Shown: positions 33,148 through 35,577 of the stretch, in pieces | Position numbering within the stretch: the stretch's first letter is position 1 | Layout of the letters: every line of letters begins with the position of its first letter | Source of the DNA: Actinomycetes bacterium | GTDB taxonomy: Bacteria; Actinomycetota; Coriobacteriia; Anaerosomatales; JAGXFU01 | Direction of reading: 5' to 3' | NCBI GenBank assembly: GCA_024637115.1 | Contig: JAGXFU010000010.1 | Coordinates: 124,001-188,000, forward strand | DNA length: 64,000 nucleotides | Notes under the pieces: model-generated | What the model was told of the DNA's origin: nothing | Databases searched by the model: none | What the model saw: the letters and a program-made list of their open reading frames with translations, nothing else | Position numbers and translations under genes: made by a program

Positions 33148-33387
33148 ATGCGCAAGGTACTCATTGGGACGGGCATCGCCGTGCTGTTCGCGGCCACGTT
33201 GCTGTTGGGCGGATGCCGCGGTGCATATGTGGGCTCATCGATGTCGCATCGCTACCATGACCCCGATTGCATGTGGGCAAAAGAACTGCCCCGTGATCGC
33301 CAGGTCTGGTTCGCAACGATCGACGAAGCAGTAGCTGCCGACTATGAGCCGTGCTCGACGTGCACGCCTGATGTTGTTACGGAGTAG
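33148..33387 (+). CDS. Small lipoprotein with Ada-like metal-binding motif
   Basis: LLLGGC lipobox; HRYHDPDCMWAKELPRDRQVWFATIDEAVAADYEPCSTCTP. Confidence 0.8.
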   Translation: MRKVLIGTGIAVLFAATLLLGGCRGAYVGSSMSHRYHDPDCMWAKELPRDRQVWFATIDEAVAADYEPCSTCTPDVVTE

Positions 33388-33955
33388 CGGAGCCCGACGG
33401 ACCTAAGACTGCCGAGCGTTCGCTTTCGAGTAACTCTCGCTTTCGCTGCGTGCCCCACCTATAGCCGCCAAGAGCTCCGTCGGTGCGAATGACCCGATGG
33501 CAGGGCACGGCGACGGCAACGTGGTTTCGCGCACATGCGCTCGCCACGGCCCGCATCGCTCGCGGTCGGCCGATTCGATTCGCGACCTGCGCATACGTCG
33601 CGGTCTCGCCCGGGGGGATTCTGCGCAGTTCGGCCCACACCTCCTGTTGGAACGGTGTGCCGACAAGGTCGAGCGGGATCTCACCTTCTGGAGCGTGCCC
33701 CGCGAGCAAACCAACGATACGGGCAACGTGCTCTGCGACCTGATCCGCATCTTGCATGAGCTCCGCTTCAGGGAACTCGGCGCGTAGTGCCTGTTCGGCG
33801 GCAAGATCGGTGTCGGCAAAGAGGATCGCGCATATCCCCAGGGTGGTTGCGCCGACCAACATGCGCCCCACATCCGAGTCGGCGGTATCCCAGGCGATCA
33901 GCATTCGCGGCTTCGCGGCGGCCTGAGTCTCGATGTCGGTGTCGTCCGGGTTCAT
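33377..33955 (-). CDS. ogt: Methylated-DNA--[protein]-cysteine S-methyltransferase
   Basis: PFQQEVWAELRRIPPGETATYAQVANRIGRPRAMRAVASACARN...VPCHRVIRTDGALGGYRWG. Confidence 0.94.
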   Translation of the reverse strand: MNPDDTDIETQAAAKPRMLIAWDTADSDVGRMLVGATTLGICAILFADTDLAAEQALRAEFPEAELMQDADQVAEHVARIVGLLAGHAPEGEIPLDLVGTPFQQEVWAELRRIPPGETATYAQVANRIGRPRAMRAVASACARNHVAVAVPCHRVIRTDGALGGYRWGTQRKRELLESERSAVLGPSGSATP

Positions 33956-34030
33956 AGACCAATAATGCCAGCCATCGGTCCGCAATACCATCCGATTCGT
34001 ATCGTCTCCACTCGAATTCCTGTCAAAGAC

Positions 34031-34058
34031 TTGCTATGCACTATTGTTGTGATATTAT
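34031..34058 (+). promoter_or_regulatory. Predicted promoter TTGCTA-16-TATTAT
   Basis: AT-rich island in GC-rich context upstream of the leader ORF. Confidence 0.55.
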
Positions 34059-34117
34059 CCAACGGAATTGACGGAGAGACCCCAGAGGTCTCAAGCGCGC
34101 ACTAAGGAGGTGGCACT

Positions 34118-34198
34118 GTGAATCAAGAAGTACCGACGAAGGCGACCTGTTCGCCTGCACCCATGAGTGTCCGTATTCCGGTGCGCCGCGCCGTCTGA
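34118..34198 (+). CDS. Putative 26-codon leader peptide (M)NQEVPTKATCSPAPMSVRIPVRRAV
   Basis: aaggaggtggcactGTG: strong SD; stop 11 nt before a 10-bp inverted repeat. Confidence 0.5.
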   Translation: MNQEVPTKATCSPAPMSVRIPVRRAV

Positions 34199-34208
34199 TC
34201 ATCTGAAC

Positions 34209-34253
34209 CAGACATCGCGGCCACCCCTAGGGGGAGGAACCCTGCGATGTCTG
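34209..34253 (+). promoter_or_regulatory. Attenuator-like hairpin sequestering a start codon
   Basis: CAGACATCGC (34209-34218) / GCGATGTCTG (34244-34253), perfect 10 bp; right arm contains the ATG at 34247; SD ggggagg is in the loop. Confidence 0.55.
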
Positions 34254-34462
34254 AATTAAACGCGAGAGTTCTCGCGCACAACACGTACTCACTCGATCTC
34301 TCCGGCGTGCTCACGCATCTGCGTGACACTGCTGCCGCGTACCTGTCGAGCGCCGCACGTTCAGGGCGCCCTGCAGCACACGGAGTGCCCCGGAGCCGTG
34401 TCGGTCCCGGTCGCACTGTGGCCGAGCAACACCATGTGACCGATGCCTGGCGGATCCGATGA
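34247..34462 (+). CDS. 71-aa protein of unknown function, overlaps the ORF of rsgA
   Basis: MSELNARVLAHNTYSLDLSGVLTHLRDTAAAYLSSAARSGRPAAHGVPRSRVGPGRTVAEQHHVTDAWRIR; good SD. Confidence 0.45.
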   Translation: MSELNARVLAHNTYSLDLSGVLTHLRDTAAAYLSSAARSGRPAAHGVPRSRVGPGRTVAEQHHVTDAWRIR

Positions 34463-34485
34463 GGTCCGCCGGGTATCATCCACAC

Positions 34486-35577
34486 ATGGACGAATCCGCA
34501 CCCGACACGCTCGCGGCGCTCGGCTGGTCTCCTCGGTGGGAGGCGCTCTTTGCGCCCTATGCCGAGGAAGGCCTCGTGCCGGCCCGGGTGATCCGCGCGG
34601 ATCGCGGAAGTGTGCTCCTGACAACTGCCGAGGCAACACTTCGCGCAGAACTCGCCACGCGCCTGCTCAAAGAGACGGTCGCGGCTGTCGATCTTCCGAC
34701 GGCAGGTGACTGGGTGGCGCTTCGCATACCCCCGGGTCATGACGCGGGAATCGTCGAGGCAGTGATAGATCGTTCCTCGGCATTCACACGGGGGGATCCG
34801 AGCGTACAGGGCGGCGGGCAGGTGCTCGCGGCCAACATCGACACCGTGTTCGTGGTGCATCCGATCGAGGACGGCGCGAACCTGCGTCGCATCGAGCGGG
34901 AGCTGGCGCTTGCGTGGGAGAGCGGCGCGATTCCGGTTGTCGTGCTCACCAAGGCCGACCTAGCCGAGGACCCCGAGCAGGTGCAGCTTGATGTCGAGGG
35001 AGTCTCGCCCGGCGTTGACGTGATCCTCGCGAGTCCGCCCACCGGGTTGGGGCTCGATGAGATCGCGTCGCGCGCTCATGAGGGCGCGACGATTGCGCTG
35101 ATCGGCCCCTCGGGCGCGGGCAAGTCCACGCTCATCAACGCGCTCGTTGGCGAGGAGCGGCAAGAAACGCAGGGTGTACGCGAAGGCGACAGCAAGGGCC
35201 GCCACACCACCGTCGCTCGCGAGCTGATCTTGCTGCCGACCGGTGGTGTGCTTGTGGACACACCGGGGCTTAGGGCGGTTGCCGTGCATGAACTCGGCGA
35301 GGGTCTCGACGCGGCGTTTCCTGAGATCGCAGCGCTATCCGAGCAGTGTCGCTTCGGCGACTGTTCGCACACAGATGAGCCCGGTTGTGCGGTCGTTGCT
35401 GCAATCGAATCCGGTGAGATGGATGCGGGGCGTTTGGGCAGTTACCATAAGCTGCAGCGCGAGGCGGTCGTTGCCGCGATGAAGACCGATGCACACCTTC
35501 GTGCCGAAGAAGTGCGCAAGTGGAAGATGGTCTATAAGAGCTTGAAGCATCATCCCAAGTATCAGAATCGAGGCTGA
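34486..35577 (+). CDS. rsgA: Ribosome small subunit-dependent GTPase A
   Basis: Circularly permuted GTPase: VVLTKADL ... GPSGAGKSTLINALVG ... VDTPGLR; Cys/His zinc motif CRFGDCSHTDEPGCAV. ORF also open from 34459. Confidence 0.94.
   Translation: MDESAPDTLAALGWSPRWEALFAPYAEEGLVPARVIRADRGSVLLTTAEATLRAELATRLLKETVAAVDLPTAGDWVALRIPPGHDAGIVEAVIDRSSAFTRGDPSVQGGGQVLAANIDTVFVVHPIEDGANLRRIERELALAWESGAIPVVVLTKADLAEDPEQVQLDVEGVSPGVDVILASPPTGLGLDEIASRAHEGATIALIGPSGAGKSTLINALVGEERQETQGVREGDSKGRHTTVARELILLPTGGVLVDTPGLRAVAVHELGEGLDAAFPEIAALSEQCRFGDCSHTDEPGCAVVAAIESGEMDAGRLGSYHKLQREAVVAAMKTDAHLRAEEVRKWKMVYKSLKHHPKYQNRG

Follow-up and report, generated by a model that had tools for sequence, protein, structure and literature searches.

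A putative leader-ORF translational attenuator 5' of a 71-aa ORF and an accessory rsgA, with related elements elsewhere in the order

In an Actinomycetes bacterium, a short ORF followed by inverted repeats lies just 5' of a 71-aa ORF (ORF71) and an rsgA gene, and the question is whether this arrangement forms a regulatory element and, if so, what it senses and which genes it controls. We analysed a stretch of 64,000 nucleotides (positions 124,001 to 188,000 of contig JAGXFU010000010.1), hereafter the window. The reading that we prefer, with a probability of roughly 0.6, is a ribosome-sensing translational attenuator controlling ORF71 and, via an ATGA overlap, the accessory rsgA; it is drawn from sequence alone, without expression or footprint data. 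The features of the locus, in window coordinates, are as follows.

34031-34058, + strand: promoter-like TTGCTA-16-TATTAT, the sole promoter-like site in 33950-34600 (0.2 expected by shuffling)
34076-34092, + strand: inverted repeat GAGACC-ccaga-GGTCTC in the 5'-UTR, read from the sequence
34094-34120, + strand: segment 0, comprising the leader SD AAGGAGG (34104-34110) and the start codon; partner of segment 1
34118-34198, + strand: leader ORF of 26 codons with a GTG start, VNQEVPTKATCSPAPMSVRIPVRRAV
34140-34156, + strand: mid-leader hairpin AGGCGA-cctgt-TCGCCT, predicted at the same place in relatives with changed bases
34180-34197, + strand: segment 1, the leader end GGTGCGCCGCGCCGTCTG; partner of segment 0 or segment 2
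34209-34225, + strand: segment 2, CAGACATCGCGGCCACC, 3' of the leader stop; partner of segment 1 or segment 3
34209-34218 with 34244-34253, + strand: 10-bp stem, with the ATG of ORF71 in its right arm and the SD GGGGGAGGA in its loop
34230-34253, + strand: segment 3, the target SD GGGGGAGGA (34230-34238) and start region, predicted to be sequestered by segment 2
34247-34462, + strand: ORF71, encoding a small basic protein of unknown function, with homologues in seven other genomes
34459-35577, + strand: accessory rsgA (PF03193), with a possible start at ATG 34459 and an alternative at ATG 34489

The promoter-like site, inverted repeat, SD, GTG leader ORF and 10-bp stem were all found where a sequence-only reading of this DNA had placed them, and the positions that it gave for the ORF71 ATG (right stem arm) and its SD (loop) are correct. 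The gap between leader stop and stem, however, is 10 nt and not 11 nt as claimed. The proposed pairing of GTCTG (34193-34197) with CAGAC (34209-34213) is present, but it is merely the top of a longer helix joining 34180-34197 to 34209-34225. That reading had included neither the helix between leader SD and leader end, nor the mid-leader hairpin, nor the overlap of the ORF71 stop with the possible rsgA start as ATGA (34459-34462). Hexamers resembling TTGCTA/TATTAT were seen by eye at a comparable distance 5' of the leader in several relatives. The 5'-UTR inverted repeat is not general, being found only in the window and in genomes G051 and G039, there as GAGACTGAAGGGTCTC. The window also contains, at 33148-33387 (+), an ORF of 79 aa that matches an Ada-type metal-binding domain and begins like a lipoprotein; it adjoins a convergent O6-methylguanine-DNA methyltransferase gene (33377-33991, -).

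ORF71 has no family match in Pfam, NCBIfam or PDB, and PHROGs returned a single non-significant match, to one ORF71 homologue (E=0.12). It is absent from the phage and plasmid collections searched, as is the leader pattern from viral contigs. The AlphaFold model of a homologue was poor (mean pLDDT 67, pTM 0.34), with one confident helix at about 18-46. The homologues belong to the same order, those first aligned having about 33-42% identity to the window protein, and they show selection at the protein level (pN/pS 0.20-0.61). The leader ORF has exactly 26 codons in all eight ORF71-type loci (the window and the seven other genomes, from several genera), a strong leader SD is present 5' of every homologue, and the leader stop lies 45-48 nt 5' of the target start. 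Since the neighbours of ORF71 vary from one genome to another and none of those inspected has rsgA as the following gene, the ORF71 unit is free-standing in those relatives. In five genomes (G050, G039, G042, G060 and G057) a leaderless rsgA is followed on its own strand, 3-28 kb further downstream, by the ORF71 element, which may be the remnant of an earlier leader-ORF71-rsgA order or mere synteny. The homologue of G061 (L049 on G061:C188, L051 on C54) is apparently split over two contig ends with one in-frame TGA, and represents either a pseudogene or an assembly error.

The link to rsgA, which the sequence-only reading had offered tentatively, was strengthened by a covariance model (R1) built solely from the eight ORF71-type elements and blind to rsgA. 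Besides its eight, R1 recovered the same element at six other places, directly 5' of rsgA, in G062, G045, G009, G051, G039 and G014 (E 8e-7 to 8e-4). The leaders of these rsgA-type loci are 24-25 codons long and finish with PVxR followed by one or two residues, with 34-45 nt between leader stop and rsgA start, and G051 and G039 carry elements of both types. The conservation of leader ORF and stems in close relatives, which had been named as a check on the original proposal, thus extends to 14 loci of the order, where leader, SD, spacing and hairpins are kept. In the window, a single element is followed by ORF71 and then rsgA. The comparison supports the earlier idea of an attenuator gating ORF71 and possibly rsgA, but ORF71 and rsgA appear as separable targets, which occur together only in the window genome. 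Because the element precedes ORF71, whose stop overlaps the possible rsgA start, we infer that the window rsgA is probably coupled to ORF71, and so to the element, through the ATGA.

The product of the window rsgA contains an RsgA_GTPase domain (PF03193, E=4e-44, 150.9 bits). Two rsgA matches over the cut-off were found in the window genome, G000 (G000:C1:130396-130926 and G000:C15:158765-159283); the one on C1 is a further copy, and the window rsgA is the accessory one. A tree of 106 RsgA proteins places it with the leader-bearing rsgA of G062, G051 and G039 (support 100/98), and the 27-row clade of housekeeping type that holds the other G000 copy has no leader. A second covariance model (R2), run on 401 genomes of the class, revealed no further strong case except in G048. 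There, L164 (G048:C65:6777-6916, minus strand) is a 24-codon rsgA-type leader, MHRTQIGVLTAPTWSYASIPVHRV, with the segments of helix 1:2; the gene that follows after a few hundred bases encodes a SAM-dependent methyltransferase, and G048 gave no rsgA match over the cut-off. Codon 4 of the rsgA-type leaders is the rare Ile codon ATA in all six loci (ATA makes up 7 of the 95 Ile codons in the rsgA genes of these loci), and it is a possible early pause site there.

The four segments can form three helices: 0:1 (leader SD with leader end), 1:2 (leader end with post-leader segment) and 2:3 (post-leader segment with target SD). Helix 1:2 shares segments with both of the others and is mutually exclusive with each. 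Native and swapped pairings were compared over 11 non-redundant loci in 20000 permutations, and swaps matched or beat the native pairing in 1/20000 cases for 0:1, 0/20000 for 2:3 and 697/20000 for 1:2; permutation within type only gave p=0.0016, p=0.0033 and p=0.09, respectively. The native pairing has a clear advantage in 0:1 and 2:3, and a weak one in 1:2. Relatedness among loci is not fully removed in these tests. The first eight loci alone gave weak results for 0:1 and 1:2, and 0:1 and 2:3 became clear once the rsgA-type loci were added.

Helix 2:3, the hairpin that would sequester the target SD and start, is present in all loci, with 88.1% of its pairs kept against 40-57% when the segments are slid; four pairs changed on both sides, and the covariation score was not reached in 500 shuffles. 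Segment 2 variants are matched by their partners: in G062, CGCAGG is accompanied by CCTGCG in segment 3, its partner in segment 1 being shifted, and in G045, CGTGGG is accompanied by CCCACG. Helix 1:2 is 98.2% paired, compared with 36-59% when slid, and shows little covariation of its own. RNAalifold selected 0:1 and 2:3 in one alignment and 1:2 in a wider one, as expected for alternative folds. No Rfam covariance model matched at its gathering score, nor at E up to 5. At the level of sequence comparison, these data establish the conservation of the leader ORF, the segments and both targets, and the covariation of 0:1 and 2:3.

The substitutions in the leader end indicate what is conserved there. 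Codons 18-26 of the eight ORF71-type leaders show no synonymous changes, four non-synonymous kinds (R/H, I/T, R/C, V/A) and conserved wobble bases. The base that changes freely in the rsgA-type leaders lies in the codon before a conserved CGC, gives R, H or P, and corresponds to the bulge of helix 1:2. Because the only changes are non-synonymous and the free base is at this bulge, the conserved leader end is explained by pairing; judged by this pattern, codons 18-26 are constrained as RNA and not as an arrest peptide. Codons 2-17 show no protein-level selection in the eight ORF71-type leaders, and leader translation, which is inferred, therefore rests on the fixed length, start, stop and SD. 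Amino-acid-specific attenuation was also considered and was rejected, as no residue is common to the variable part of the leaders.

The attenuator that we propose would work as follows. At rest, helix 0:1 would be formed and segment 2 would hide the target SD and start in helix 2:3, keeping the genes off. If a ribosome were held at the leader start or close to it, it would block segment 0 and leave segment 1 free to capture segment 2 in helix 1:2, and the exposed target SD would turn the genes on. Ribosomes running through the leader would instead cover segment 1, and 2:3 would re-form. The likely signal would be stalling caused by ribosome-targeting inhibitors or another translation stress. 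The direction of the switch, the stall position and the signal are all inferences. In an equilibrium model of stall position, opening of the target SD changes little with the position of the ribosome and no clear window appears; switching would therefore have to be kinetic.

Several other explanations have to be weighed against this one. A ribosome positioned on the final codons of the leader or at the stop might simply melt or mask segment 2 and open the target SD, so that the leader couples translation and senses termination or nothing particular. The rsgA-type loci, in which segment 2 closely follows the leader stop (34-45 nt from stop to start), would suit such a scheme, as would the modelled opening, which is easier at codon 24 in G050, G051b and G014b. 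However, segment 2 lies further from the stop in the ORF71 type, other loci show no such codon-24 effect in the model, and the covarying 0:1 helix would be left without a role. We regard this explanation as unlikely, while keeping it in consideration. We find it still harder to believe that the leader ORF is incidental and that the folds sense temperature, a small molecule or a protein. The retention of codons 18-26 as RNA and the lack of peptide selection in codons 2-17 are compatible with such a switch, and an undescribed aptamer is not excluded since no Rfam family fits. An incidental ORF, however, does not account for a length fixed at 26 codons in eight loci that also retain start, stop and a strong SD, nor for short upstream ORFs at rsgA of other phyla despite unrelated RNA sequence.

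Stalling of the ribosome by the conserved IPVxR end of the leader is suggested by the presence of PVxR in 14/14 leaders, but it has little to recommend it in view of the exclusively non-synonymous changes in codons 18-26 and of a free residue that maps to the 1:2 bulge, as a pairing constraint predicts; a peptide-arrest motif was set aside on this substitution pattern. As for a small ORF and inverted repeats without any function, SD-bearing short ORFs are not rare, and shuffling predicts them upstream of 11.6 of 108 rsgA genes. Both leader and folds are found again in relatives from different genera and families, with covariation, and on this comparative evidence the whole observation is more than chance, an explanation to which we attach almost no weight.

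The proposed attenuator has partial counterparts among known systems. Translational attenuators of the erm/cat type combine a leader ORF with alternative helices that exclude each other, the target SD being hidden in one of them. The window resembles them in its target-SD hairpin (2:3) and mutually exclusive alternative helix (1:2), and differs in that its targets are an ORF of unknown function and an accessory rsgA rather than a methylase or acetyltransferase, that the leader end has the leader SD itself as a pairing partner, and that no arrest peptide is apparent. In the ToiL uORF of topAI-yjhQ of Escherichia coli, a stalled ribosome relieves the structure over the target SD; a response to several drug classes has been reported, with tetracycline stalling ribosomes at the uORF start codon (PMC12121999). 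Our proposed mechanism resembles this tetracycline response, although sequence and target are unrelated and Rho-dependent termination contributes in ToiL. The HflXr gene of Listeria monocytogenes, like the window rsgA, is an additional gene for a ribosome-associated GTPase with a short leader ORF in front of it (PMC6310831); HflX, however, is not RsgA, its control is a transcriptional attenuator with an RLR leader, and resistance was demonstrated experimentally. The RsgA pair SCO6149/SCO5211 of Streptomyces coelicolor appears in a list of paralogues where one copy depends on WblC and tetracycline (PMC7157823), in that case by transcriptional control with no leader described.

Short leaders were also found at accessory rsgA genes of Actinomycetota, Bacillota, Gammaproteobacteria, Cyanobacteria and Fusobacteria. 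These short ORFs, most of them with SDs, lie just 5' of rsgA in Herbidospora, Nonomuraea, Rhodococcus, Nocardia, Streptomyces plasmids, Acetobacterium, Brevibacillus, a plasmid labelled Stenotrophomonas, Nostoc and Leptolyngbya plasmids, Vibrio, Photobacterium, Shewanella, a Listeria record, Peptoclostridium and Cetobacterium. An automatic rule detected a short upstream ORF in 41 of the 108 rsgA loci, against the 11.6 expected, and some of the 41 are false. The leader calls at the housekeeping-type rsgA L082, L083, L098 and L103 look false, as they have in common a WPNL.ADTA stretch resembling the end of an upstream gene. The sample is uneven, since L007-L042 were fetched by similarity to the window rsgA. 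Complementarity between leader end and spacer exceeds chance in a set of 19 loci (Fisher p=1.6e-5), reaching for example 15 bp in Nostoc, and together with the leaders themselves it counts in favour of the attenuator reading. For pairing of the 0:1 type, 19 loci outside the order gave no significant result (Fisher p=0.15), though single cases are striking, such as Brevibacillus, with GCAAAGGAG and CTCCTTTGC. In Cetobacterium (L178), Acetobacterium (L022) and the Listeria record (L176), a G-rich stretch in the leader end and the rsgA SD compete for a single anti-SD segment, with modest single-locus P values (0.02-0.41). The leader label, set by hand on the tree, requires 8-11 changes, and repeated gain or loss of leaders is therefore likely. 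No published description of a leader peptide for rsgA was found, in a literature search made mostly without subscription papers.

Short leaders of this kind often mark genes induced against ribosome inhibitors, and their recurrence before spare rsgA copies suggests that a response to ribosome-blocking stress or drugs has been overlooked. We put forward, as a conjecture that we would not yet bet on, that accessory RsgA proteins are a widespread and unrecognised class of stress- or drug-inducible 30S factors, silenced by leader attenuators that arose several times across phyla, and that in this lineage one attenuator was also recruited to ORF71, which would work with RsgA on ribosomes. The leaders found in several phyla point to RsgA copies as inducible factors of ribosome stress or resistance, as for HflX, and in two of the plasmid records, labelled Lysinibacillus (L142) and Stenotrophomonas (L143), the accessory rsgA adjoins a FosB/FosM-type fosfomycin-resistance gene. 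The RsgA proteins of these two records are 97% identical, so one of the host labels may be wrong. In L143, a hairpin and T run, terminator-like by eye, lie 3' of the leader.
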